A DNA stretch of 60,713 bases from Bacteroidota bacterium (GTDB lineage: Bacteria > Bacteroidota > Bacteroidia > Chitinophagales > Chitinophagaceae), in NCBI GenBank assembly GCA_029558715.1, contig JAKQEA010000129.1, positions 1 through 60,713 of the forward strand, given 5' to 3'. Under the pieces are notes generated by a model. That model ran no database searches. It was not told the origin of the DNA and saw nothing but the letters and a program-made list of their open reading frames with translations. This document shows positions 31,942 through 45,705 of this stretch, piece after piece. A program made the translations under genes and the position numbers. Positions within the stretch are counted from its first letter, which is position 1; each line of letters opens with the position of its first letter.

Positions 31942-33219
31942 TTAAATAAGATATCCGAACAACTGGTCGTTTTTATTTATTTCTGAGAAACCAATATTGG
32001 AATCTTTCATTTTCTTTAAAAGTAAATCATAATCGGATCGGCTTTGTAATTCTACGCCCACTAAAGCTGGACCATTTTCTTTGTTTGTCTTTTGCATATA
32101 CTCAAACCGGGTGATATCATCTGTTGGTCCAAGTACATTATTGACAAACTCTCTCAAAGCGCCGGGACGTTGTGCAAAACTGATGAGGAAATAATGTTTT
32201 AATCCTTCGTATTGCAGGCTTCTTTCTTTTATCTCCTGCATTCTGTCTATGTCATTATTGCTGCCGCTCACAATACATACTACATTTTTCCCTTTTATTT
32301 CATCTACATAATCATCCAGGGCAGCAATTGATAGAGCTCCTGCCGGCTCTACCACGATGGCGTCTTCATTATATAATTTCAAAATACTGGAACATACTTT
32401 CCCTTCTGCTACCAGGTGCATGTCATCCAATACCTCTTTGCAAATAGAAAAAGTAAGATCACCCACTCTTTTCACGGCAGCACCATCAACAAATCGTTCG
32501 ATGCTGTCTAATGTAACAGGGTGACCTGCTTTCAGTGCTTCAAACATGGAAGGGGCTCCTTCAGGCTCCAAACCAATGATCTTTGTTTTGGGTGAATAGG
32601 TTTTAAAGTAAGAACCTACACCGGCACTTAAGCCGCCGCCACCAACAGGAATAAACAAATAATCAATGCCCCCGGTTCCTCCAGAAGCAGGAGGAAAATC
32701 TTCCAGTATTTCAATTCCAACCGTTCCTTGTCCTTCGATGATCCGGTAATCATCAAAAGGCGGAATAAATGTCAGCCCGTTTTCTTCTGTATATTGTTTG
32801 GCATTTACAGCGCAATCATCAAACGTATCACCAACGAGTTTTATCTCGATATAATTCTCGCCAAACATTTTTGTTTGATTCACCTTCTGTTTGGGAGTGA
32901 TGATAGGCATGAACACCACACCTTTTACGTTCAATTTTTTGCAACTGTAGGCAAAGCCCTGGGCATGATTCCCGGCGCTGGCACAAACAACTCCCTTATG
33001 CAATTGTTCAGCCGTTAGAGAACTCATCATATTATAAGCTCCTCTCAATTTGTAGGACCGAACTACCTGCAGATCTTCTCTTTTCAGGAAAACATTACAG
33101 CGGTATTTTTTCGACAAACTATGGTTATAAGTTAGCGGAGTTCTGTTTACCACTTTTTTCAGTCGAAAATGTGCTGACACAAAATCGGGCTGCACTTTAT
33201 TATCTATTGTTTGGGCCAT
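31942..33219 (-). CDS. ilvA: Threonine ammonia-lyase (threonine dehydratase), biosynthetic
   Basis: A 425-residue PLP enzyme that deaminates threonine to 2-oxobutanoate, the first committed step to isoleucine. The PLP Lys is in SYKLRGAYNM, the phosphate loop is PVGGGGLSAG, and ASAGNHAQGFAYS holds the Asn that contacts PLP. The C-terminal region (about 335-425, HYFLISFAQRPGALREF) is a single ACT-like domain, so this is the shorter IlvA form, not the 510-residue double-ACT form of E. coli. It lies last in the ilvE-D-B-N-C-A operon, nine bases after ilvC. Confidence 0.95.
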   Translation of the reverse strand: MAQTIDNKVQPDFVSAHFRLKKVVNRTPLTYNHSLSKKYRCNVFLKREDLQVVRSYKLRGAYNMMSSLTAEQLHKGVVCASAGNHAQGFAYSCKKLNVKGVVFMPIITPKQKVNQTKMFGENYIEIKLVGDTFDDCAVNAKQYTEENGLTFIPPFDDYRIIEGQGTVGIEILEDFPPASGGTGGIDYLFIPVGGGGLSAGVGSYFKTYSPKTKIIGLEPEGAPSMFEALKAGHPVTLDSIERFVDGAAVKRVGDLTFSICKEVLDDMHLVAEGKVCSSILKLYNEDAIVVEPAGALSIAALDDYVDEIKGKNVVCIVSGSNNDIDRMQEIKERSLQYEGLKHYFLISFAQRPGALREFVNNVLGPTDDITRFEYMQKTNKENGPALVGVELQSRSDYDLLLKKMKDSNIGFSEINKNDQLFGYLI

Positions 33220-33228
33220 ATGTTGTAA

Positions 33229-34359
33229 TTATCCTACGGACTCAGGTTTTTGTGCCAGTTTACTGAATACCTCTTTAGTTGATGATGCCGTAGCGGCAAT
33301 TTTTTCTGCTTTAGGCTGATTCTCTGGTCGCAAGCTTCTTACAGTTTTGCCTGCCTGCCACAACTCACTTTCACGAAGCTCCTTCAGCTCTTCTTCCAGT
33401 TTTTCCCTGTAATCGGCTTTGCTGTTACTGTCAATAGAACGTTGTGATTCTTTGCCGGAAGCAACACTGTCATACAATTCATTGAATACAGGAGCCGTTG
33501 CATCACGGAATTTTTTCCACCAGTCCAATGCACCACGTTGCGCAGTAGTTGAACAGTTAGCATACATCCAGTCCATACCGTTTTCTGCTACCAATGGCAT
33601 CAGCGATTGTGTGAGTTCTTCAACTGTTTCATTAAATGCTTCACTCGGTGAATGACCTCTTTCACGCAACACTTGATATTGTGCAGCGAAAATTCCCTGT
33701 ATGGCACCCATCAATGTTCCTCTTTCGCCAGTCAGGTCACTGTATACTTCTTTTTTGAAATCAGTTTCAAATAAATAACCACTTCCTACAGCAATACCCA
33801 ATGCAATAACACGGTCAAATGCTTTACCGGTGGCATCCTGGAAGATGGCGTAAGAGCTGTTCAGGCCACGGCCTTGTAAGAACATTCTTCTCAACGAAGT
33901 GCCCGAACCTTTTGGTGCCACTAAGAAAACATCGACGTCTTTCGGGGGAACAATTCCTGTTTGCTGATTAAAAGTGATACCAAAGCCATGTGAGAAGTAC
34001 AGGGCTTTGCCGGGGGTTAAATGCTTCTGGACGGTTGGCCACAGGGCAATCTGTGCCGCATCACTCAGCAGGTAGCAAATGATAGTACCTCTTTGCAATG
34101 CTTCTTCAATTTCAAATAATGTTTCACCGGGAACAAATCCATCACGGATAGCTTTATCCCATGTTTTGGAATCTTTACGCTGACCAACGATCACATTGAT
34201 GCCGTTATCTTTTTGGTTCAATGCCTGACCCGGTCCCTGCACTCCATAGCCGATCACAGCTACTGTTTCATTTTTTAATACCTGTTGAGCTTTGCCCAGA
34301 GGGAATTCTTCCCTGGTTACAACGTTTTCTTCAACGCCGCCGAAATTTAGTTTTGCCAT
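33229..34359 (-). CDS. ilvC: Ketol-acid reductoisomerase
   Basis: A 376-residue NADPH-dependent enzyme that makes 2,3-dihydroxy acids from acetohydroxy acids in valine and isoleucine synthesis. The Rossmann motif is VAVIGYGVQGPGQAL, with the NADPH phosphate contact in GQRKDSK; magnesium ligands lie in YSDLTGERGTLMGAI, and FSHGFGI is conserved. Compared with the class I form of about 330 residues, it has an extra loop and a C-terminal Lys/Ser-rich tail of about 25 residues (AATASSTKEVFSKLAQKPES). It follows ilvN by 42 bases. Confidence 0.95.
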   Translation of the reverse strand: MAKLNFGGVEENVVTREEFPLGKAQQVLKNETVAVIGYGVQGPGQALNQKDNGINVIVGQRKDSKTWDKAIRDGFVPGETLFEIEEALQRGTIICYLLSDAAQIALWPTVQKHLTPGKALYFSHGFGITFNQQTGIVPPKDVDVFLVAPKGSGTSLRRMFLQGRGLNSSYAIFQDATGKAFDRVIALGIAVGSGYLFETDFKKEVYSDLTGERGTLMGAIQGIFAAQYQVLRERGHSPSEAFNETVEELTQSLMPLVAENGMDWMYANCSTTAQRGALDWWKKFRDATAPVFNELYDSVASGKESQRSIDSNSKADYREKLEEELKELRESELWQAGKTVRSLRPENQPKAEKIAATASSTKEVFSKLAQKPESVG

Positions 34360-34401
34360 GATTATCTGTTTTGGATTGTTATTAACTAATTATTGATTTT
34401 T

Positions 34402-34992
34402 TTACATACTGAATACTTCCTGGTTCTTGTCGAGAAACTCATTTTCTATTGCCTCTTCCCCGGGCTCTTTTTGTTCAAACTCTTTCAGCCTTTCATGGAA
34501 GCCGCTACTGCCTTTTATAATAGCCACCCTCGCACTTCTTACAAATTCTATCAGGCCGTATGGCTCCAGTACTTTTATTAATGCTTCTGTTTCTTCCCGG
34601 TGGCCCGCAACAGCAAATACTGTATAATCTTTTCTTATCACAACCGTGTGAGCACCGTTTTCCCTTAATAGTCTTTCAACTTTCACTTCTGTAGCGATTA
34701 CATCTGTAGGTACTTTGTACAAAGCCAGTTCCTGCCAAACAATTTCATTTTCTGTATTATAATATGCCTTAAGTACTTCCACCTGCTTCTCAATCTGGCG
34801 GCATAGTTTTCGTACAACGTCCTCATATTCGCTGATTACAATTGTAAAACGATGTACACTGTCTACTTCAGTTGGGGAGGTATTGAGGCTTTCGATATTG
34901 ATCTTTCGCCTCGAAAAAATAATAGCGATACGATTCAGCAAACCAACCTGGTTCTCTGTGTATACGGTTATGGTATATTCCTGTTTATTCAT
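34402..34992 (-). CDS. ilvN: Acetolactate synthase small (regulatory) subunit
   Basis: A 196-residue ACT-domain subunit that confers valine feedback control on the IlvB catalytic subunit. The frame extends into ilvB, but the ATG at 34992 begins MNKQEYTITVYTENQVGLLN, the normal ACT start. The ACT core RIAIIFSRRKINIESLNTSP and the C-terminal subdomain (RENGAHTVVIRKDYTVFAVAG) are clear. Relative to the usual 160-180 residues there is a modest acidic C-terminal tail. It begins 19 bases after the ilvB stop. Confidence 0.93.
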   Translation of the reverse strand: MNKQEYTITVYTENQVGLLNRIAIIFSRRKINIESLNTSPTEVDSVHRFTIVISEYEDVVRKLCRQIEKQVEVLKAYYNTENEIVWQELALYKVPTDVIATEVKVERLLRENGAHTVVIRKDYTVFAVAGHREETEALIKVLEPYGLIEFVRSARVAIIKGSSGFHERLKEFEQKEPGEEAIENEFLDKNQEVFSM

Positions 34993-35011
34993 GATTGTCT
35001 TATTAGTATAA

Positions 35012-36760
35012 TTATATTTCTTCTTTGCTAAGCACACATTCGGCAACTCCCCGTCCCTGTGGTACCATGGGAAATACATTATTTTCTTTTCCTACCATTA
35101 TTTCTAATAAATAACTACCATCATGTCTAAGCATTTCTTCTACTGAGCTTTTCAGAAATTCTCTTTTTGAAATGCTTTTCCCGGGAATGCCAAACCCTTT
35201 GGCCACCTGCACAAAATCAGGACTGGTAATATCCACGAATGAATATCTTTTTTCATGAAAAAGTTGCTGCCACTGGCGCACCATGCCTAAGAATTGGTTG
35301 TTGAGAATAATGATCTTGACTTTTGGTTTAAACTGCATGATGGTCCCCAGTTCCTGTAAGGTCATTTGAAAACCACCATCACCAATGATTGCTACTGTTG
35401 TTCTGGAAGGATCTCCATAGGCTGCGCCGATAGCAGCGGGCAATGCATACCCCATGGTGCCTAATCCGCCTGATGTAATATTGCTTTTTGATTGGTTGAA
35501 TTTTGCATACCGGCAAGCCACCATCTGGTGTTGTCCCACATCAGTTACAATTACTGCATTTCCATTGGTTAATTCATTGAGTGTTTTGATCACTTCCCCC
35601 ATGGTCAGTACCTCACTGGTTGGGTTCAACTCATCATGAATTACTTTCTCTTCTTCTTTTTGCTGGTAGTCTTTGAATTTTTGCAGCCATTGGGGATAGA
35701 CTTTTTGCGCTACTAATTTTGTCAGCAGAGGTAATGTTTCTTTACAATCGCCCCAAACCGGTACATCTGCTTTTACGTTTTTATCAATTTCGGCCGGGTC
35801 AATATCAAGGTGAATGACTTTTGCCTGCCTGGCATATTTATCCAAACGACCTGTCACCCGGTCATCGAAACGCATGCCCACGGCTATCAGTACATCACAT
35901 TCATTTGTCAAAACATTTGGGCCATAATTGCCATGCATACCAAGCATACCCACACCTAACGGGTGATCCGTAGGAATAGCACTCATACCCATGATGGTCC
36001 ATGCGGCTGGTATACCTGCTTTCTCAATAAACTGTTTGAATTCCTTTTCTGCCTTGCCCAGTATTACTCCCTGTCCAAAGATGACGAAGGGTCTTTCTGC
36101 GTTGTTTATTAATAAAGCAGCTTCTTCGATATATTTTTTCCTTACTATTGGTTTGGGACGATAGCTTCTTATATGCTCACATTTAGTATACCCCTCGTAA
36201 TTGAATAATTGTAATTGTGCATTCTTGGTAATATCGATCAGCACAGGTCCCGGTCTTCCGCTACCGGCGATATAAAATGCTTTAGCCAGTACATGTGGTA
36301 TTTCATTGGCATCTGTCACCTGGTAATTCCATTTGGTAACCGGTGTAGTGATATTGATAACATCTGTTTCCTGGAAGGCATCAGTGCCTAATAAATGGGC
36401 AAATACCTGCCCTGTGATACAAACAACAGGAGTGGAGTCTATCATTGCATCAGCCAAACCGGTAACAAGATTAGTTGCCCCCGGACCACTTGTGGCAAAT
36501 ACCACACCTGATCTGCCACTTACTCTAGCAAAGCCCTGTGCTGCATGAATAGCACCTTGTTCGTGACGAACCAGTATATGCTTGAGTTTTTCTTTATAAT
36601 CGTACAATGCATCATAGATTGGCATGATGGCACCACCGGGATAGCCAAAGACTGTATCCACACCTTCTGCTAAAAAAGCCTCCAGCACTGCCACTGAACC
36701 CGATATGGGGGTTGTCTTTTTAGATTCCTGTTTCACTTTTGCGATTTCCAGTGTTTCCAT
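35012..36760 (-). CDS. ilvB: Acetolactate synthase large (catalytic) subunit
   Basis: A 582-residue ThDP- and FAD-dependent enzyme that condenses pyruvate with pyruvate or 2-oxobutanoate. The catalytic Glu is in LVRHEQGAIHAAQGFAR, the first GYPGGAIMP block is typical of AHAS, and the ThDP-Mg motif is GDGGFQMTLQELGTI with NNQFLGMVRQWQQLF after it. These residues separate it from pyruvate oxidase and related enzymes. It follows ilvD by 11 bases and is paired with ilvN, so this is a complete AHAS holoenzyme. Confidence 0.96.
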   Translation of the reverse strand: METLEIAKVKQESKKTTPISGSVAVLEAFLAEGVDTVFGYPGGAIMPIYDALYDYKEKLKHILVRHEQGAIHAAQGFARVSGRSGVVFATSGPGATNLVTGLADAMIDSTPVVCITGQVFAHLLGTDAFQETDVINITTPVTKWNYQVTDANEIPHVLAKAFYIAGSGRPGPVLIDITKNAQLQLFNYEGYTKCEHIRSYRPKPIVRKKYIEEAALLINNAERPFVIFGQGVILGKAEKEFKQFIEKAGIPAAWTIMGMSAIPTDHPLGVGMLGMHGNYGPNVLTNECDVLIAVGMRFDDRVTGRLDKYARQAKVIHLDIDPAEIDKNVKADVPVWGDCKETLPLLTKLVAQKVYPQWLQKFKDYQQKEEEKVIHDELNPTSEVLTMGEVIKTLNELTNGNAVIVTDVGQHQMVACRYAKFNQSKSNITSGGLGTMGYALPAAIGAAYGDPSRTTVAIIGDGGFQMTLQELGTIMQFKPKVKIIILNNQFLGMVRQWQQLFHEKRYSFVDITSPDFVQVAKGFGIPGKSISKREFLKSSVEEMLRHDGSYLLEIMVGKENNVFPMVPQGRGVAECVLSKEEI

Positions 36761-36771
36761 AAATAATTATT

Positions 36772-38457
36772 TTAAGCTTCATCTGTTACACAGCCTTCAT
36801 CAGCCGGCTTTACAGTTCTTGCATATTTAAATAGTATTCCTTTTGTTGCTTTCAATGCAGGTTGTTTCCAGTTCTTTCTTCTGTCGGCAATAATTTTTTC
36901 GTCCACTTTCAGATTGATCGTATTTTTCACTGCATCAATTTCAATGATATCGTTATCTTCTACCAACGCAATCAACCCGCCATCGAATGCTTCAGGAGTG
37001 ATATGCCCTACGACAAAGCCATGTGTGCCGCCACTAAAGCGACCATCTGTTATCAGCGCAACGGATTTTCCTAGCCCTGCTCCAATTATAGCACCTGTTG
37101 GTTTCAGCATTTCGGGCATACCCGGCGCACCTTTGGGGCCGATATAACGGATCACCACCACATCTCCTGCATGAACCTTACCGGATTGAATGCCTGCTAT
37201 CAGGTCTTTTTCTCCATCAAAGACTCTTGCGGTTCCTTCAAAACGTTCCCCTTCTTTACCGCTGATCTTTGCTACACTTCCTTTCTCTGCCAGGTTGCCG
37301 TACAGGATTTGCAGGTGTCCCGTTTTCTTCAACGGTTGTTCTAACGGGTAAATAATGTGCTGAGCCTTGAAATCCAGATCCGGAACACCTGCTAAATTCT
37401 CTGCAACCGTTTTACCGGTTACTGTCAAACAATCGCCATGGAGCAAACCATTCTTTAATAAATATTTCATCACGGCAGGAACACCGCCATGCTTATGTAA
37501 ATCCTCCATCAGGTATTTACCCGATGGTTTGAAATCAGCTAATACCGGGATGCGGTCACTAATTTTTTGAAAATCATCCTGCGATAATGCCACATCCACA
37601 CTTTTAGCCATTGCGATCAGGTGCAATACAGCATTGGTGCTTCCACCCAAAACCATAACAACCGTAATCGCATTTTCGAATGCTTTACGGGTCATGATAT
37701 CTTTTGGCTTAATATCTTTTTGTAATAAAATCTTAATGGCTTCACCCACAGCCGCACATTCTTTTTGTTTGTCTTCACTCAATGCGGGATTGGAAGAGGA
37801 GTTAGGCAGACTCATGCCCAACGCTTCAATAGCAGATGCCATTGTATTGGCGGTGTACATACCACCGCAGGCACCGGCACCCGGACAGGAATGTTGCACA
37901 ATACCTTTGAAATCACCTTCACTCAGGTTGCCTGCGATTTTTTGTCCCAATGCTTCGAATGCACTGACAATATTTAAATCTTCTCCTTTGTAATGACCAG
38001 GCGCAATGGTGCCACCATATAACATAATCGAAGGACGGTTCAGTCTTCCCATCGCCATAACAGCACCCGGCATATTCTTATCACAACCGGGAATAGCGAT
38101 AAGTCCATCATAATACTGTGCGCCGGCATTGGTTTCTATACTGTCTGCAATTACATCACGGCTAACCAAACTGTACCGCATGCCATCTGTTCCCATACTG
38201 ATACCATCGCTGACACCGATGGTATAAAATCGTAATCCCAATAAACCTTCTGTTGCGTTCACACTGTTTCTTACACTCACTGCGAGATCATTCAGATGCA
38301 TATTACAGGGATTACCGTCCCATCCCATGCTCACAATACCAACCTGTGCTTTATTAAAATCTTCTTCTTTAAAACCAATGGCATAATACATGGCCTGTGC
38401 TGCTGGTTGTGTGGGATCCTGCGTTAATATCTTACTGTATTTGTTTAATTCTTTCAT
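36772..38457 (-). CDS. ilvD: Dihydroxy-acid dehydratase
   Basis: A 561-residue Fe-S dehydratase giving 2-oxo acids in valine and isoleucine synthesis. Cluster Cys residues are in [11 protein letters not shown] and [47 protein letters not shown] and [12 protein letters not shown] are conserved. The early Cys in [10 protein letters not shown] completes the three-Cys set. Three bases separate it from ilvE, consistent with translational coupling. Confidence 0.96.
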
Positions 38458-38460
38458 ATG

Positions 38461-39354
38461 TTAAGCTACTTCCTGTTCTAAGCGAAATGGTTTTTCCAGT
38501 ACTTTACATTTATAAGCCTGCTGGATGATATAACTCAGTGAATCTTCCCAGTTCTTTTTGAAGGGAACATTATCAAGTGAACTCAAGGCGACTACTTCTG
38601 CAGCGGTGCCGCAGAAGAAACCAGCATCCGCCCCTCTCATTGCAGAAGGAGTGAATAATTTTTCTTCCACCGGTATGCTCAGTTCATTGCATATATCTAT
38701 TATAGTAGCTCTTGTAATACCGGGAAGAATATTTCCTTTTGGAGCTGTATACAGCACTCCGTCATTTTCATAAAAGATATTGGCGCCACTGCTTTCAGCA
38801 ACAAAACCGTTACTATCCAGCACCAGTGCTTCATCAAAGCCATTGTCCTTAGCTTCCTGGCAGGCGAGGATGGAGTTTACGTAATGACCGCTCACTTTGG
38901 CGTCCACATGAAATGCATCTGCATTCGGGCGGCGGTAAGTGGATGTCATGATCTTCATCTTATTACTCATATACCCGTTTGTCCATTCCCATGCTTGGAT
39001 TGCGAGATAGGATTCCTTGCCTTTCGATAAGGACATATTGGGAGAACACAATACAATGGGTCTTATATAAGCATCTGTGAAATTGTTTCGATCTAAAGTT
39101 TCATATGTCAGCTCAACCAGTTGATCAGTTGAATAGCTGAATGGTATCTTCATCACTTCTGCTGAATGACGGAGACGGTCGTAATGTTCATTTCCTTTGA
39201 ACATTTTAGTGCCGCCGTTGACAGGGTAGGAGCGGATGCCTTCAAATACGGCATAACCATAATGTAGTGACTGGCTGTACAAGTCAATTTTAGCTTCGGC
39301 AGCTTTTACAAACTGTCCATTAAAATAAATAATTGTGTTTTCGTTGTAATACAT
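38461..39354 (-). CDS. ilvE: Branched-chain amino acid aminotransferase
   Basis: A 297-residue fold-IV PLP enzyme that performs the final transamination to Leu, Ile and Val using glutamate. I choose the ATG at 39354 (MYYNENTIIYFNGQF); six further codons upstream are possible but not conserved. Motifs: LHYGYAVFEGIRSY, the PLP Lys in DAKVSGHYVNSI, EALVLDSNGFVAESSGANIF and GNILPGITRATII. It is the first structural gene after the Ile/Val leader attenuator. Confidence 0.95.
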   Translation of the reverse strand: MYYNENTIIYFNGQFVKAAEAKIDLYSQSLHYGYAVFEGIRSYPVNGGTKMFKGNEHYDRLRHSAEVMKIPFSYSTDQLVELTYETLDRNNFTDAYIRPIVLCSPNMSLSKGKESYLAIQAWEWTNGYMSNKMKIMTSTYRRPNADAFHVDAKVSGHYVNSILACQEAKDNGFDEALVLDSNGFVAESSGANIFYENDGVLYTAPKGNILPGITRATIIDICNELSIPVEEKLFTPSAMRGADAGFFCGTAAEVVALSSLDNVPFKKNWEDSLSYIIQQAYKCKVLEKPFRLEQEVA

Positions 39355-39383
39355 ATTTTTTGTTTTGTTCAATGACGGGTATT

Positions 39384-39417
39384 AAAAAAGCGACCCGCCT
39401 TTTTGGAGGCGGGTCGC
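39384..39417 (-). terminator. Attenuator terminator before ilvE
   Basis: Read on the minus strand: GCGACCCGCC-TCCAAAAA-GGCGGGTCGC, a perfect 10-bp GC-rich stem (39417-39408 with 39399-39390), followed by TTTTTT (39389-39384). It lies between the Ile/Val leader peptide and ilvE. Its 5' arm and loop, CCGCCTCCA, can instead pair with TGGAGGTGG at the end of the leader ORF (39459-39451), nine pairs with one G-U, giving a mutually exclusive antiterminator. Confidence 0.92.
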
Positions 39418-39443
39418 ATATATTTTGTTTAGTTAGTTCAGCA

Positions 39444-39539
39444 TCATGCACCACCTCCATTTGAAGATATAATAATCACCACCACAATAATAATTGCGGC
39501 TATTTTGGTAATGATATTATATATAATCGTCTTCAACAT
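39444..39539 (-). CDS. Ile/Val-rich leader peptide of the ilv operon
   Basis: A 31-codon ORF that begins ATG TTG AAG ACG (MLKTIIYNIITK) and ends SSNGGGA before TGA. It contains 11 Ile, 3 Val and 1 Leu, including an uninterrupted run of nine: IIIVVVIII at residues 16-24. It precedes a strong terminator and ilvE, exactly as in transcription attenuation: ribosome stalling on the run when charged Ile- or Val-tRNA is scarce would leave the following GGAGGTGG free to form the antiterminator. The closing Gly codons, GGA GGT GGT, are that antiterminator strand, which explains the odd GGGA tail. The peptide itself probably has no function after translation. Confidence 0.9.
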   Translation of the reverse strand: MLKTIIYNIITKIAAIIIVVVIIISSNGGGA

Positions 39540-39590
39540 GAAGGATGTATGTGTTGTAAATATACACCCGCCGTTTCAAAAAAAGAACTC

Positions 39591-39601
39591 AGCAAGCAAT
39601 A
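39591..39601 (-). promoter_or_regulatory. Shared 11-mer upstream of the ilv leader
   Basis: TATTGCTTGCT on the minus strand, 52 bases before the leader ATG, identical to the sites at gltB and leuA and followed, as at gltB, by G. A promoter for the leader should lie in this 110-base gap, but I could not match both promoter boxes. No terminator is seen after leuB, so read-through from the leu genes into the ilv leader is possible. Confidence 0.4.
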
Positions 39602-39648
39602 ATTATTTGAATAATGGACGAACCATCGTTAGTTATTGATCAATACCA

Positions 39649-40776
39649 TCAAATAATAGTTGACTTTCTCAACTCAATATTTTCAGTATTTACTGAACCG
39701 GATATCTTGCCACTTACAAAATCACTGATCAGTTCTCCTATCGTGGAAGTGAAATAAAAATTCACCGGGTCAATGTCTTTTGTCACAAACGAATTCAACA
39801 AAGTCCAGTTTACAGCATCACGAACCAGTTTAGCTTCTTCTTCCATACTCAAAAACTCGAGCATCATCGCTGCGGAAAGAATAGAACCAATAGGGTTAGC
39901 AATATCCTTACCGGCAGCCTGCGGATAAGAGCCATGTATGGGTTCAAACAAAGCAATATGTTCGTTTATTCCGACAGAGGCGGAAGGAAGCAATCCCAGT
40001 GAACCACTTATTACACTGGCTTCATCGCTGATGATATCACCAAACATATTTTCTGTAAGGATGATATCAAACTGTTTTGGATTTTGAATTATTTGCATGG
40101 CAGCATTATCCACGAACATATAATCTACAGTTACATCAGGATACTGCGGCGCCATTTCCTGTACTACTTTTCTCCATAGCCTTGATGTTTCCAGTACATT
40201 GGCTTTATCAACCAATGTCAGTTTTTTTCTTCTGCCAGGCTTTTGGGCAAAATGAAATGCCAGCCCGGCGATCCGTTCTATTTCTTCCCGGCTGTAAGTA
40301 CATTCATCGAGGGCCAGTGTATTGTCAGCGTTGGTTTCTTTTTTGCCAAAATAGATACCGCCGGTCAGTTCACGGAAAATTATAAAATCAACACCTTCAA
40401 TGTTCTTGTTTTTTAACGGGGATAAATGATGCAAAGAGGAATAGGTAGTAATAGGGCGGATATTGGCGTAGAGCTGCAATGTTTTACGAAGTCTCAGCAA
40501 GCCTTGTTCAGGTCTTACTTTAGCAGTTGGGTCATTATCATATTTCGGGTGACCTATGGCCCCGAATAAAATAGCATCGCTATTCAGGCAAACTTCAATC
40601 GTTTCATCAGGAAGCGGATTCCCTGTTTTATCAATAGCGTCAGCTCCCATCAGGCAATAGGTGTAAGTAAATTCATGCCCGAATGATTCTGCAATGGCAT
40701 TCAATACACGGATAGATTGTTTGGTAACTTCTGGTCCTATGCCATCGCCTTCTATTACTGCAATATTCTTTTTCAT
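39649..40776 (-). CDS. leuB: 3-Isopropylmalate dehydrogenase
   Basis: A 375-residue NAD-dependent decarboxylating dehydrogenase in leucine synthesis. IAVIEGDGIGPEVTKQSIRV opens the protein; FRELTGGIYFG, VDKANVLETSRLWR and the NAD-site ENMFGDIISDEASVISGSLG are diagnostic; HGSYPQAAGKDIANPIG is also conserved. The last 20 residues (SGSVNTENIELRKSTII) extend a little past the usual end. It follows leuD by five bases. Confidence 0.95.
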   Translation of the reverse strand: MKKNIAVIEGDGIGPEVTKQSIRVLNAIAESFGHEFTYTYCLMGADAIDKTGNPLPDETIEVCLNSDAILFGAIGHPKYDNDPTAKVRPEQGLLRLRKTLQLYANIRPITTYSSLHHLSPLKNKNIEGVDFIIFRELTGGIYFGKKETNADNTLALDECTYSREEIERIAGLAFHFAQKPGRRKKLTLVDKANVLETSRLWRKVVQEMAPQYPDVTVDYMFVDNAAMQIIQNPKQFDIILTENMFGDIISDEASVISGSLGLLPSASVGINEHIALFEPIHGSYPQAAGKDIANPIGSILSAAMMLEFLSMEEEAKLVRDAVNWTLLNSFVTKDIDPVNFYFTSTIGELISDFVSGKISGSVNTENIELRKSTII

Positions 40777-40781
40777 AGTTC

Positions 40782-41366
40782 TTATACTCTTTGGGTTTCG
40801 AATTGTTGTATTTCTTTTTTTATGCTTAGCAGGTAATCAATATCATCGTAGCCATTCAGTAAGCAGGTTTTTTTATACCTGTTGATTTCAAAGTGTTCCT
40901 GCTCGCCGGTTGAATTGATAGTAATGATTTGTTTTTCCAGGTCAACTGTCAGTTCTGTATTATTATCCTGCAGGAAGATCCGTTGCAGGAATGCGTCACT
41001 TACCTGTACCGGTAATACCCCGTTATTTAAGGCATTATTCCTGAAAATATCAGCGAAAAAACTGGAGACCACCACTCTGAACCCATAATCCAAAATAGAC
41101 CAGGCAGCATGTTCCCTTGAGGAGCCGCAGCCAAAATTTTTTCCGGCTACTAATATTTCGCCATCAAACTGTGACATATTCAACGGGAAATGCGCTATTT
41201 TTTTTGATTCATCATCATTTTCATAACGCCAGTCACGGAATAGATTTTTGCCAAAACCATCTTTAGTAGTAGCCTTTAAGAAACGGGCCGGAATGATCTG
41301 GTCAGTATCAATATTTTCGATATTGATAGGAACAAACCTGCTTTGTATGGTTGTTAATGCTCTCAT
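40782..41366 (-). CDS. leuD: 3-Isopropylmalate dehydratase small subunit
   Basis: A 194-residue swivel-domain subunit that pairs with Leu[17 protein letters not shown] and [20 protein letters not shown] are the substrate-specificity blocks of the LeuD family. Length fits the 190-200 residue bacterial type. Three bases separate it from leuC and five from leuB, so leuACDB is a tight operon. Confidence 0.96.
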
Positions 41367-41369
41367 TGG

Positions 41370-42770
41370 TTAATTCAATAGTTCTCTCACATCAGTTACT
41401 TCTCCTGTAATCGCTGCTGCAGCTGCTGTTAACGGGCTTGCCAATAAGGTTCTGGCGCCAGCACCCTGCCTGCCTTCAAAATTCCTGTTAGAAGTGCTGA
41501 TACAATATTTACCAGCCGGAATTTTATCTTCATTCATACCGAGACAGGCGGAGCAGCCCGGCTGCCGAAGCATGAAGCCTGCCTCTTCAAAAATCTTATC
41601 TATGCCTTCCTGTATCGCCTGTGTTTCTACCTGTTTACTTCCCGGCACAACCCATACTTCCACATTATCAGCCTTCTTTTTCCCTTTTACAAACGAGGCT
41701 ACCATTCTTAAATCTTCTATTCTTGAATTGGTGCAACTTCCGATGAATACATAATCAATTTTCTGTCCTTTGATAGGAGAGCCTGGTTGCAATCCCATAT
41801 AGGCTAATGACTTTGACAACCCTGACCTGTCATTTTCATTGATTGTTTCAGTAGTTGGAATATTTTCACTTATACCAATGCCCATTCCGGGGTTAGTGCC
41901 ATAGGTGATCATCGGTTGTATATCCTCTGCATTAATGAAAATCTCTTTATCAAAAGAAGCATCGCCATCAGAATATAATTGTTTCCATTCTGCCATTTTC
42001 TTATCCCAGTCAGCACCCTGCGGAGCAAATTTTCTTCCTTTGATATATTTAAATGTTATTTCATCAGGAGCGATCAATCCGCAACGACCACCCATCTCAA
42101 TACTCATATTGCAGATGGTCATTCTTGCTTCCATGCTTAAAGAACGGATAGCTGATCCGGCGAATTCAACGGCATACCCCGTTGCACCACTGGCAGTGAT
42201 CTTTGAAAGGATGTATAAAACAATGTCTTTTGACACCACTCCTTTATGTAATACTCCATCCACATTGATACGCATTAATTTGGGCCTGCTCTGCAATAAA
42301 CATTGTGAAGCAAATACCATTTCTACTTCGCTGGTGCCGATACCAAAGGCAATTGTACCAAATGCTCCGTGTGTGGACGTATGACTATCGCCGCAAACGA
42401 TCGTCATGCCGGGTTGTGTAATTCCCAGCTCAGGGCCTATTACATGCACAATGCCCTGGAAGGGATGTCCAAGGCCATATAATTCAATACCATGCTCAGC
42501 ACAGTTATTAATCAATGCTTCTACCTGTTTACGGCTCAGTTCTTCTTTGATAGGTAAGTGCTGATTGAGTGTAGGAACATTATGATCAGCAGTAGCCACC
42601 ACCTGTTGCGGACGAAACACTTTTATACCTCTTTTATTTAACCCGGTAAAAGCCTGTGGGCTGGTAACTTCATGAATAAAATGTGTATCAATATATAATA
42701 CAGAAGGACCATCATCAATCGTTTTAACGATATGCTTCTCCCAGATCTTTTCAAATAGTGTCTTGCCCAT
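41370..42770 (-). CDS. leuC: 3-Isopropylmalate dehydratase large subunit
   Basis: A 466-residue aconitase-superfamily subunit with a 4Fe-4S cluster. The Cys ligands are in [13 protein letters not shown] and the later [34 protein letters not shown] is conserved, and NRNFEGRQG near the C-terminus is the substrate-contact segment of isopropylmalate isomerases. Length is typical of bacterial LeuC. It lies five bases after leuA. Confidence 0.96.
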
Positions 42771-42775
42771 CTTAT

Positions 42776-43945
42776 TTATACTACTGCTGCTTTGGATTGA
42801 TATTGTTTTGCCATTGTTGACAGGTCAGCGTCTTCCACTTCTTTTTTACTGTCGGCCACTCTTAAAAATTCATTGTATAATACATCCACATCATTACGGT
42901 CAAACTGGAAGCCAAGTTTCTGAAAACGGAAGGCCAGTGCACTGCGGCCGCTTCTTGCAGTCAGTACAATTTTTGAACTGTCTGCTCCAACTTCTTCCGG
43001 AGCGATGATCTCATAAGTTTGTGCATCTTTCAAAAATCCATCCTGGTGGATGCCGGATGAATGAGAGAAAGCATTACTTCCGACTATCGCTTTATTCGGT
43101 TGTACGGGCATCCGCATTGTTTCAGATACAAGCCGGCTGACCGGGTTCAGTTTTTCTGCTTTGATATTTGTATATAATTCAAGGTCCTTATGCTGCTTCA
43201 TGATCATTACTACTTCTTCGAGGGAAGTATTACCGGCTCTTTCACCTAAGCCATTTATGGTACATTCAATTTGTCTTGCCCCGGCAATAACACCAGCAAT
43301 GGAATTGGCAGTGGCCAGTCCCAGGTCATTATGACAATGGCAGGATATAACAGCTTTATCAATATTGGAAACATTATTAACGAGGTAAGCGATCTTTTCA
43401 CCATACTGGTGAGGTAAACAATAGCCGGTGGTATCGGGTATATTTACAGTAGTAGCACCTGCTTTGATTACTGCTTCGATAACCTGTGCCAGGTAATCAT
43501 TATCTGTTCTTCCGGCATCTTCGGCATAAAACTCTACATCATCCGTGTAGTTACGGGCCCACTTCACACACTGGATAGCTCTTTCTAAAATCTCTTCCCG
43601 GGTAGCATTGAATTTTGCTTTGATATGAAGATCAGATGTACCGATACCTGTATGTATCCTTGGCCGTACGGCGTATTTTAATGCTTCACCGGCTGCTTCA
43701 ATATCTTTTTGCACAGCCCGGCTGAGTCCGCATACAGTTGCATGCTTAATGGCTTTGGCGATCTGGTTTACTGATTCAAAATCACCGGGAGAAGAAATAG
43801 GAAAGCCGGCTTCAATGATATCCACTCCCAGCTCTTCTAATTGCAGCGCCAGTTCCAGTTTTTCTGTAGTATTCAGTTTACAACCCGGCACCTGCTCGCC
43901 ATCGCGGAGGGTGGTATCAAAAATGAAGACTTTTCCTGCTGCCAT
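42776..43945 (-). CDS. leuA: 2-Isopropylmalate synthase, short form
   Basis: Condenses acetyl-CoA with 2-oxoisovalerate, the first step to leucine. I use the ATG at 43945 ([20 protein letters not shown]); the frame is open 30 codons upstream, but that part lies over a terminator hairpin and lacks family similarity. The DRE-TIM barrel is complete: TTLRDGEQ, the metal-ligand [13 protein letters not shown] and [12 protein letters not shown]. The protein is only 389 residues, so it lacks most of the C-terminal LeuA dimer domain that binds leucine in the 500-520 residue forms. Citramalate or homocitrate synthase are alternatives, but the leuC-leuD-leuB context favours LeuA. Confidence 0.9.
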
Positions 43946-43970
43946 ATTTAATTGATAAATTGAGGGGTAT

Positions 43971-44032
43971 AAAAAATGCAGGCTGCTTATTTTTGTATTG
44001 CTTGCTATTAATTCAGTCAATAAACAACCTGC
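43971..44032 (-). terminator. Terminator-like hairpin in the leuA leader
   Basis: Read on the minus strand: GCAGGTTGTTTATT pairs with AATAAGCAGCCTGC (44032-44019 with 43991-43978), 14 bp including two G-U pairs, then ATTTTTT (43977-43971). The 27-base loop holds the shared 11-mer. The hairpin lies 26 bases before the leuA ATG, and no other gene precedes it on this strand, so it can only terminate the leuA transcript itself, which suggests attenuation. Confidence 0.65.
43996..44006 (+). promoter_or_regulatory. Shared 11-mer upstream of leuA
   Basis: TATTGCTTGCT, here on the plus strand, so inverted relative to leuA and to the copies at gltB and ilv. It sits in the loop of the leader hairpin. 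A related 10-mer, TGCTTGCTAT, also occurs upstream of ppc near 18281. Confidence 0.35.
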
Positions 44033-44157
44033 CATACTAAGGTAGTTTTACAGTGTAGGCTGGTAAAAACAAAATATGAGATATTTTACACCTTTTAAAT
44101 GGCCCGGATTCCATTGAAACCCTTGCTGGTATTGAGTTTTAAAATTTTTGAATTACG

Positions 44158-45705
44158 ATGCCCAACCGTTCTCCCGATAGTCTTTTTCAGCTGGTCAAGT
44201 CACTAGAAAAGAGTGAAAAGAGGAATTTTAAGCTCTATGTGAAGCGAAATACCGATACGGAGGACCTGAAGATCATCCAGCTCTTTGATGCACTGGATAA
44301 GATGACGGATTACGACGAAGCCCAATTGCTCAAAAAAACCAGGAGCATCAAAAAGCAACAGCTCTCCAATATCAAGGCACATTTGTATAAACAAATACTC
44401 TCCAGTTTGCGCCTGATAAAGGAAGAAGATAATATTGATATACGGCTGCATGAGCAGATGGATCATGCCCGGATATTATATAATAAAGGCCTCTACCTGC
44501 AAAGCCTTAAAGTGCTGGAACGGTTAAAAGAAACAGCCCGGTCTTACCAGCAGCTTACTTTTTTACAACAGGCATTATTCTTTGAAAAGAAGATAGAGAC
44601 CCTGTATATCACCCGCAGTATGCAGGACAGGGCTGATAAATTGTCCGAAGAATCTGATGCTGTGAACAGCCAGCTGGCCCTGGTGAATAAACTTTCTAAT
44701 CTTTCGCTGCAATTATACAGCTGGTATATCCGGCATGGTCATGCCAGGAATGAGAGGGATGTGAAAAGTGTGGAAACCTTTTTTGAAAAACACCTTCCGG
44801 CAGAAGCGGAGCAGGCAAAAGGATTTTATGAACGTTTATATCTCTACCAGAGTTATGTTTGGTATGCATTTATCCGGCAGGATTTTTTACAGTATTACCG
44901 CTATACACAAAAGTGGGTTGATTTATTCTCCGCTTTTCCAGGTTTATTAAAAGTGGAAACGGCCAGTTACATAAAAGGGATGCATAACCTGATGGGGGCT
45001 CAGTTCAACCTGATGAAACATGATAAACTGGCACAAAGTATCAAACAGTTTGAACAGTTCGTCAGGCAAAAGCATTTGGAAGAAAACGAGAACAACCGCA
45101 TACTGGCATACCAGTATTTATATGCTGCCAGGATCAATCTTTATTTTCTGCAAGGCACTTTTACCAAAGGATTGCGGCTGGTTCCTTTCCTGGAGGAGAT
45201 GCTGAAAGAATATGGCTTGTACCTGGATACACACCGGGTGCTGGTCTTTTATTATAAGATCGCTTCATTATATTTCGGCAGTGGTAACAATGAAAAGGCC
45301 ATTGATTACCTGAACCGTATCATCAACCAGAAAGGTGATCTGCGAACTGACCTGCAATGCTATGCCCGGCTGCTGCACCTGATCGCTCATTATGAACTCG
45401 GCAATTTTGATCTGCTGGAATACCTTATCAAATCGGTGTACCGTTATATGGCAAAAATGGAAAACCTGAGTAAGGTGGAAGAAGAGATGTTTGCTTTCCT
45501 GCGCCGTTCCTTTCATGTGGGAGCTCATGCATTGAAGCCGGAATTTGAAAAGTTATTGGTCAAATTAAAAAAGTATGAGGGTAACCCTGTGGAAGCCCGG
45601 GCATTTACTTACCTCGATGTTATCTCCTGGCTGGAAAGCAAGATAAGCGGAGTGAATGTACAAGATGTGATACGGGAAAAATTTTTGCTGGGAAGAAGGA
45701 AGTAA
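44158..45705 (+). CDS. Conserved hypothetical helical protein
   Basis: A 515-residue soluble protein with no signal peptide or membrane helix. It is predicted all-helical and rich in Lys, Leu and Gln, with many TPR-like helix pairs, for example YNKGLYLQSLKVLERLKETA, FGSGNNEKAIDYLNRIIN and YLYAARINLYFLQGTF, but no repeat is canonical. The N-terminus (SLFQLVKSLEKSEKRNFKLY) is basic and could bind nucleic acid. I recall similar proteins of unknown function in Bacteroidota, though I cannot name a family. It is divergent from leuA with 212 bases between, and convergent with the cyclase gene. Confidence 0.75.
   Translation: MPNRSPDSLFQLVKSLEKSEKRNFKLYVKRNTDTEDLKIIQLFDALDKMTDYDEAQLLKKTRSIKKQQLSNIKAHLYKQILSSLRLIKEEDNIDIRLHEQMDHARILYNKGLYLQSLKVLERLKETARSYQQLTFLQQALFFEKKIETLYITRSMQDRADKLSEESDAVNSQLALVNKLSNLSLQLYSWYIRHGHARNERDVKSVETFFEKHLPAEAEQAKGFYERLYLYQSYVWYAFIRQDFLQYYRYTQKWVDLFSAFPGLLKVETASYIKGMHNLMGAQFNLMKHDKLAQSIKQFEQFVRQKHLEENENNRILAYQYLYAARINLYFLQGTFTKGLRLVPFLEEMLKEYGLYLDTHRVLVFYYKIASLYFGSGNNEKAIDYLNRIINQKGDLRTDLQCYARLLHLIAHYELGNFDLLEYLIKSVYRYMAKMENLSKVEEEMFAFLRRSFHVGAHALKPEFEKLLVKLKKYEGNPVEARAFTYLDVISWLESKISGVNVQDVIREKFLLGRRK

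Follow-up and report, generated by a model that had tools for sequence, protein, structure and literature searches.

Introduction

In the attenuators of the enterobacterial ilvGMEDA, leu, trp and his operons, an amino-acid-rich leader peptide is encoded ahead of a terminator that precedes the first gene, the terminator is mutually exclusive with an antiterminator, and the position of the ribosome switches between the two; the locus described here resembles them in all four respects. Control of this kind requires a ribosome close behind RNA polymerase. Bacteroidota start translation mostly without Shine–Dalgarno pairing. Amino acid attenuators have reportedly been predicted in Bacteroidetes/Chlorobi, among other groups (Vitreschak et al. 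2004, FEMS Microbiol Lett 234:357).

Upstream ORFs rich in branched-chain amino acids have also been reported elsewhere. The Corynebacterium ilvB-II ORF, which lies before an ilv operon, has been attributed to transcription attenuation, and such ORFs have been proposed for the ilvB-OMG and Leptospira ilvB motifs (PMC10272879). These motifs belong to other organisms and are likened to the present unit by their description in that paper, the main text of which contains no term beginning Bacteroid, Flavobacter or Chitinophag (PMC10272879). The Bacteroid-trp RNA motif (Rfam RF01692) was presented as a likely cis-regulatory RNA of Bacteroidetes, with a name that points to trp genes (PMC2864571). 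Its covariance model matched none of 19 genomes, the present one included, although the present genome has a trp leader with the layout of the ilv unit. Tandem attenuators have been described in Salmonella mgtCBR (PMC3641672), but this is a Mg2+ transporter and virulence operon, whereas the tandem loci reported below carry two complete leader–antiterminator–terminator units before ilv genes. Short ORFs reminiscent of attenuation leaders have been noted in B. thetaiotaomicron (PMC7366714). Among the titles, abstract openings and passages of the open-licence literature that we searched, we found no description of ilv leader peptides in Bacteroidota.

Here we analysed the ilv locus within a 60,713-nucleotide stretch of Bacteroidota DNA (hereafter, the window). 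It is highly probable that ilvEDBNCA in this genome is preceded by a ribosome-mediated transcription attenuator that senses shortage of Ile or Val. Three features set it apart from the enterobacterial attenuators: we found no support for a 1:2 protector helix across the family, the final leader codons contain the antiterminator strand, and the predicted 5' UTR is short. The class of mechanism is classical, and the features most likely to draw specialist attention are its compactness, the embedding of the antiterminator in leader codons and the occurrence of units in tandem. On a broader scale, we think it rather likely that compact two-helix attenuators form a regulon in Bacteroidota, represented in this genome by ilv, his, trp and phe, whose leaders encode the antiterminator strand in their last codons, so that RNA pairing dictates the peptide tail. 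On the same view, some lineages, Flavobacteriales included, have stacked two independent units ahead of the ilv genes, and their response would be steeper or combinatorial. Such a regulon would imply transcription–translation coupling in the phylum, and conserved attenuators make this coupling directly testable in Bacteroidota. Serial control could be tested on the tandem units, which are natural pairs for the purpose. Most of the leader peptides are too short for routine gene calling, and the match between tail and terminator provides a simple rule for finding further units.

Leader peptide and terminator upstream of ilvE

On the minus strand, leuB is followed by a promoter-like block, a leader ORF, a 26-nt linker, a terminator and then ilvEDBNCA. 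The leader ORF (39444–39539, minus strand) comprises 31 codons (MLKTIIYNIITKIAAIIIVVVIIISSNGGGA, followed by a stop codon), 11 of which specify Ile, and is kept in relatives. A preliminary description of this DNA had reported such an ORF before ilvE, with the run IIIVVVIII, and both direct reading and the ORF list agreed with it. The run is encoded by the control codons ATT ATT ATT GTG GTG GTG ATT ATT ATA (39468–39494, minus strand). Downstream lies an intrinsic terminator hairpin (39390–39417, minus strand) with the arms GCGACCCGCCT and AGGCGGGTCGC around the loop CCAAAA, followed by a T6 tract (39384–39389, minus strand). The same description had correctly placed the whole element at 39384–39539 and had called the hairpin perfect, as it is, but with 10 bp, whereas we count 11 perfect pairs from 39417 to 39390.

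The last leader codons can pair with this hairpin. As had been proposed, TGGAGGTGG, within the codons for N-G-G-G, can form nine pairs, one of them G-U, with CCGCCTCCA in the 5' arm and loop of the terminator. The 5' strand of the antiterminator, TGGAGGTGGTGC (39448–39459, minus strand), starts 8 nt past the last Ile codon. The strand shared by both structures, GCGACCCGCCTCCAA (39403–39417, minus strand), consists of the terminator 5' arm and part of the loop, and its partner is either the antiterminator strand or the terminator 3' arm.

The first structural gene behind the attenuator is ilvE (38461–39354, minus strand), and ilvD, ilvB, ilvN, ilvC and ilvA (31942–38457, minus strand) form the remainder of the presumed regulated operon; together these genes serve Ile and Val synthesis. 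The terminator with its T6 tract ends 29 nt ahead of the ATG at 39354, which is most likely the start of ilvE, the listed TTG at 39372 simply giving the longest reading. Further along the operon, the listed ORFs of ilvB and ilvN share 68 nt (window positions 35012–35079), and the true ilvN start probably lies further in than listed. The genes leuA, leuC, leuD and leuB (39649–44035, minus strand; leuB, 40776–39649) lie upstream, outside the control of the ilv attenuator. Of 52 family leaders, only 5 have Leu in the main run, and this scarcity fits the position of the leu genes upstream of the attenuator in the window.

Between leuB and the leader ATG we found a conserved promoter-like block (TTCTTT...TATATTTAC; 39556–39587, minus strand), from which we infer a promoter. 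Of 52 family units, 43 contain the block, whereas among mononucleotide shuffles it appeared in 9 of 2600. It ends 15–21 nt ahead of the leader ATG in all but one of these units (42 of 43), so that the 5' UTR would be short. All counts out of 52 family units (promoter-like block, protector helix, Leu and ACCCG) are taken without L057, L133 and L160 and with L053.

Recurrence across Bacteroidota

Leader and terminator units were present at 30 of 50 ilvE loci, at 28 of 41 ilvD loci of the family and, in the other families of the phylum, at 22 of 52 ilvD loci, these three sets overlapping in part. The family survey covered 60 genomes, of which 42 had ilvD, and one (G489) was left out to give the 41 loci. 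The phylum survey covered 138 genomes and matched 93 of them at 94 places: 5 in family members, 52 that were examined, and 24 distant ilvD-type loci (L190–L213) and 13 others that were left out, the distant loci being unused because the local search did not recognise them. Ninety units were found, and removal of one that looked like chance (L036) left 89, which still include two doubtful units (L129 and L141). At a further locus (L039), a leader with the run III-V-A-V-III and a Gly tail was counted as a miss because the terminator scan was negative there. The collected leader peptides were 16 to 44 residues long, within a search window of 14 to 45. Titled genomes that carry the unit include Terrimonas ferruginea, Sediminibacterium, Flavisolibacter ginsengisoli and a Segetibacter, as well as two Flavobacterium, Chryseobacterium potabilaquae and Cyclobacteriaceae MAGs. 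In other clades, the run varies in order (IIVVVVVIII, IIIAIVIII and VIIQIIG), and the leader tail varies where the terminator varies (GGGA, YRPGK, ASGMV and RKPG).

This joint recurrence of ORF, Ile/Val run, terminator and alternative pairing in relatives supports the attenuation reading given in the preliminary description. That description also held that homologous regions should carry the run and the alternative pairing, which proved true of many of them and failed at 20 of the 50 ilvE loci, where no unit was found in the DNA examined; the attenuator is thus not universal. Units were likewise absent from the DNA examined at 13 of the 41 family ilvD loci and 30 of the 52 ilvD loci from other families. 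Several of the unit-free loci have an upstream ORF that ends at most about 50 nt from ilvD or ilvE, where a unit may either be missing or be placed further upstream. Both loci of Flavisolibacter longurius lack a unit, and the search ahead of leuA was likewise negative.

A strict Ile/Val codon pattern applied to 395 phylum genomes matched 19 of them, mostly noise, and was replaced by the surveys anchored at ilvE and ilvD. Among the 25 strict-pattern loci that were read, the only clear leaders before ilvE were the window unit and one in G308 (L072), with one more (L074) being possible. When both strands of the window were scanned for a short Ile/Val/Leu-dense ORF followed by a terminator, the scan returned the leader ORF and one Leu/Phe-rich match (14548–14417), which we judged to be due to chance.

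Leader tails and terminator arms

If the tail of the leader is kept for pairing, each tail should fit its own terminator better than those of other units. Across 25 units with different terminators, tails paired with their own arm at a mean of −13.70 kcal/mol and with swapped arms at −8.62 kcal/mol (sd 0.51), and none of 20000 shuffles reached the observed mean. The set was drawn from the 89 units and consisted of 24 distinct-arm units without the CGCCT arm, three of which (L053, L117 and L156) belong to the same family as the window, and one unit with the CGCCT arm; terminators had been picked without regard to the leader tail. Matching pairs of tail and arm include GGAGGTGG with CCGCCTCC in the family, GGGAAG with CTTCCC (L146) and CGGGGC with GCCCCG (L055). 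Among the 35 units that lack the CGCCT arm, 20 had their own arm ranked in the top 5%. The own arm fitted poorly in four cases, in which the fraction of other arms that paired as well was 0.90 (L136), 0.65 (first unit of L068), 0.44 (L156) and 0.32 (L134). When the tails were shuffled, no more than 10 of 200 shuffles paired as well in 80 of the 89 units, or in 29 of the 37 units without the family arm.

Changes in the tail bear on whether RNA or peptide is kept. In L126, a TGA stop has removed the Gly codons, and the RNA at this place, UGAGGUGG, stands opposite a terminator loop with A for C; a G-C pair has become U-A, and the antiterminator pairing is kept while the peptide is shorter. Two leaders (L104 and L105) have Arg at the first Gly position, and another (L122) has Pro-Gly-Ala. 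The first Gly codon of the tail is GGA in 47 of 51 rows, which are related and not 51 independent events, compared with 79 of 314 Gly codons in the nine branched-chain amino acid genes of the window. The co-change of arm and tail, together with L126, indicates that the Gly tail reflects a constraint on the RNA. The earlier proposal that the GGGA tail is an RNA constraint and would be conserved in related leaders is in keeping with the GGA bias, L126 and the family alignment.

In this alignment, which contains 38 of 50 references (many of the 12 left out were near-duplicates), the antiterminator was 94.1% paired, compared with 51–63% when slid. Covariation in both helices had been suggested as a check. 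It was clear for the terminator, with 30 compensatory cells and none of 500 shuffles as good. For the antiterminator, it was found across clades and was weak within the family, with one compensatory cell (86 of 500 shuffles as good) and a covariation score equalled in 37 of 500, because the antiterminator is nearly invariant there.

Folding and proposed mechanism

The leader RNA folded with a z-score of −4.98, and none of 200 shuffles was equally stable. For a 168-nt RNA, the best fold was the antiterminator and the centroid was the terminator; a shorter piece gave the terminator. For a nascent transcript that includes the 5' arm and loop of the terminator but not yet the 3' arm, the antiterminator formed (−19.3). 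With a ribosome placed at the stop codon, folding of the exposed RNA left the terminator as the only structure that can form. With a stalled ribosome and the full RNA including the 3' arm, the terminator was still preferred (−28.4), and by itself it is more stable than the antiterminator duplex (−23.0 versus −19.8). As the terminator is favoured once its 3' arm has been made, even when the ribosome is stalled, the switch would have to be kinetic.

A ribosome covers roughly 10–12 nt ahead of its A site. In 49 of 54 rows, the antiterminator strand starts at a distance of 8–13 nt from the last codon of the run, and in 51 of 54 the strand ends inside the leader ORF; these rows were chosen by arm pattern and include two from other clades (L057 and L133) and a family member with another arm (L160). 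A ribosome stalled on the last Ile codon would just free the antiterminator strand, and one at the stop codon would cover it. The features of classical attenuators, that is, an amino-acid-rich leader ORF, an intrinsic terminator, an exclusive antiterminator and a fitting ribosome geometry, are all found at this locus.

We propose the following sequence of events. RNA polymerase would start at the putative promoter between leuB and ilvE, and a ribosome would translate the leader behind it. When charged Ile-tRNA or Val-tRNA is short, this ribosome would stall in IIIVVVIII and leave UGGAGGUGG, which starts 8 nt behind the run, free to pair with CCGCCUCCA once that has been made; the terminator would be blocked, and ilvE and the genes that follow would be transcribed. 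When Ile and Val are ample, the ribosome would reach the stop codon and cover UGGAGGUGG, allowing the terminator to form.

This scheme keeps the enterobacterial logic that the preliminary description had invoked as far as attenuation itself is concerned, and departs from it in the 1:2 protector helix of the enterobacterial type, which was not supported across the 52 family rows (mean z-score −0.32, with 5 rows beyond −1.5). The window RNA does show, in one fold, a protector-type pairing of UAUCUUC with GGAGGUG. We regard a 1:2 protector or pause hairpin as dispensable for membership in the class of ribosome-mediated attenuators and have not counted it as required. Just past the T tract (39372–39383, minus strand), the window also has a stretch that could base-pair with the 3' arm of the terminator. 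This pairing was dropped as a candidate element, as only 11 of 52 family units have ACCCG within the next 25 nt.

Alternative explanations

The hairpin does sit behind leuB and may also stop read-through from the leu genes. It could on this ground be taken for a plain terminator of the leu operon, after which the ilv operon begins, with the short ORF in the gap being there by chance. We consider this very unlikely, because the ORF, its Ile/Val run, the pairing of its tail and the spacing are found together at many places in the phylum, in some cases immediately before ilvD, and because an ORF with a terminator is rare by chance, the same scan giving 3 matches in 414,572 bases (reverse strands of 50 loci, L021–L070). 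A different kind of objection is that the leader might be an RNA that binds a ligand or protein, such as a riboswitch, a T-box or a regulator site, without being translated. The leader is indeed structured, with a terminator and an alternative fold, but its conserved elements are codons and two pairings, and no Rfam family reached its gathering score in window positions 38000–45000 or in ten related loci. In 38000–45000, the T-box covariance model had no match up to an E value of 1, and Thr_leader (RF00506) scored 26.7 bits against a gathering score of 55 (E value 0.087) with a match that spans 39384–39526. Below the gathering score, Phe_leader and Thr_leader touch some units, the best match being Phe_leader on L138 (41.9 of 55 bits, E value 0.0012). 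An untranslated binding RNA is, on these grounds, extremely improbable.

Two further readings accept that the leader is translated and place its function in the peptide. A small membrane peptide, with the hydrophobic run as membrane segment and the Gly tail as peptide motif, would account for the fact that the family keeps both. However, the tail differs where the terminator differs, L126 lacks the Gly codons and yet keeps the RNA, and the his, trp and phe leaders found elsewhere in this genome have His, Trp and Phe/Tyr in place of Ile and Val, which leaves almost no room for this reading. Alternatively, the peptide itself, and not the supply of tRNA, could arrest the ribosome in answer to Ile or Val. 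The strong amino-acid-level conservation of IIIVVVIII in the family would agree with such nascent-peptide arrest, but the order of the run differs elsewhere and the repeated residue in the other leaders tracks the product of the operon, and we think arrest by the peptide highly improbable. Stalling for lack of charged tRNA, with attenuation as its consequence, remains our preferred reading.

Tandem units and other amino acid leaders

Two leader–terminator units stand in series upstream of ilvE or ilvD at six loci (L040, L044, L068, L138, L150 and L152), which were noticed while reading matches and do not amount to a systematic tandem count. Within these loci, the own arm beat that of the neighbouring unit in 11 of 12 units (mean −13.1 versus −7.6), the exception being the first unit of L068. 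By their titles, three of the tandem loci are from Flavobacteriales (Flavobacterium sp. Sd200, Chryseobacterium potabilaquae and an uncultured Flavobacteriales bacterium); one of the other three (L150) lies outside the class of the window.

Leaders for other amino acids occur in the same genome and share the layout of the ilv unit. A His leader, MKKYTHNHHHFLLCQGRP, precedes hisG (L215, 1364–1420, reverse strand), and its tail can pair with the arm of its terminator (20 of 1000 shuffles as good); a homologue in another genome of the genus (L224, G009) has MKKYTHTHHHFFLRKGRP and a terminator-like hairpin. A Trp leader, MRKHNNTWWWHTTLKGL, precedes a trpE-like gene that scores below the NCBIfam cut-off (L216, 1334–1387); it has a terminator, and its tail pairing was not significant (118 of 1000 shuffles as good). 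A Phe/Tyr leader, MKTTKTYFGFYFYYFFFKMKPGMLLLK, precedes a pheA-type gene (L222, 1339–1422, reverse strand) and has a strong hairpin with a poor T tract, its pairing being equalled in 1 of 1000 shuffles. No such unit was found at the two aspartokinase loci scanned out of four matches. When the four tails were combined with the four arms, the ilv and his tails preferred their own arms, the phe tail tied with the trp arm, and the trp tail paired about equally well with the ilv arm.
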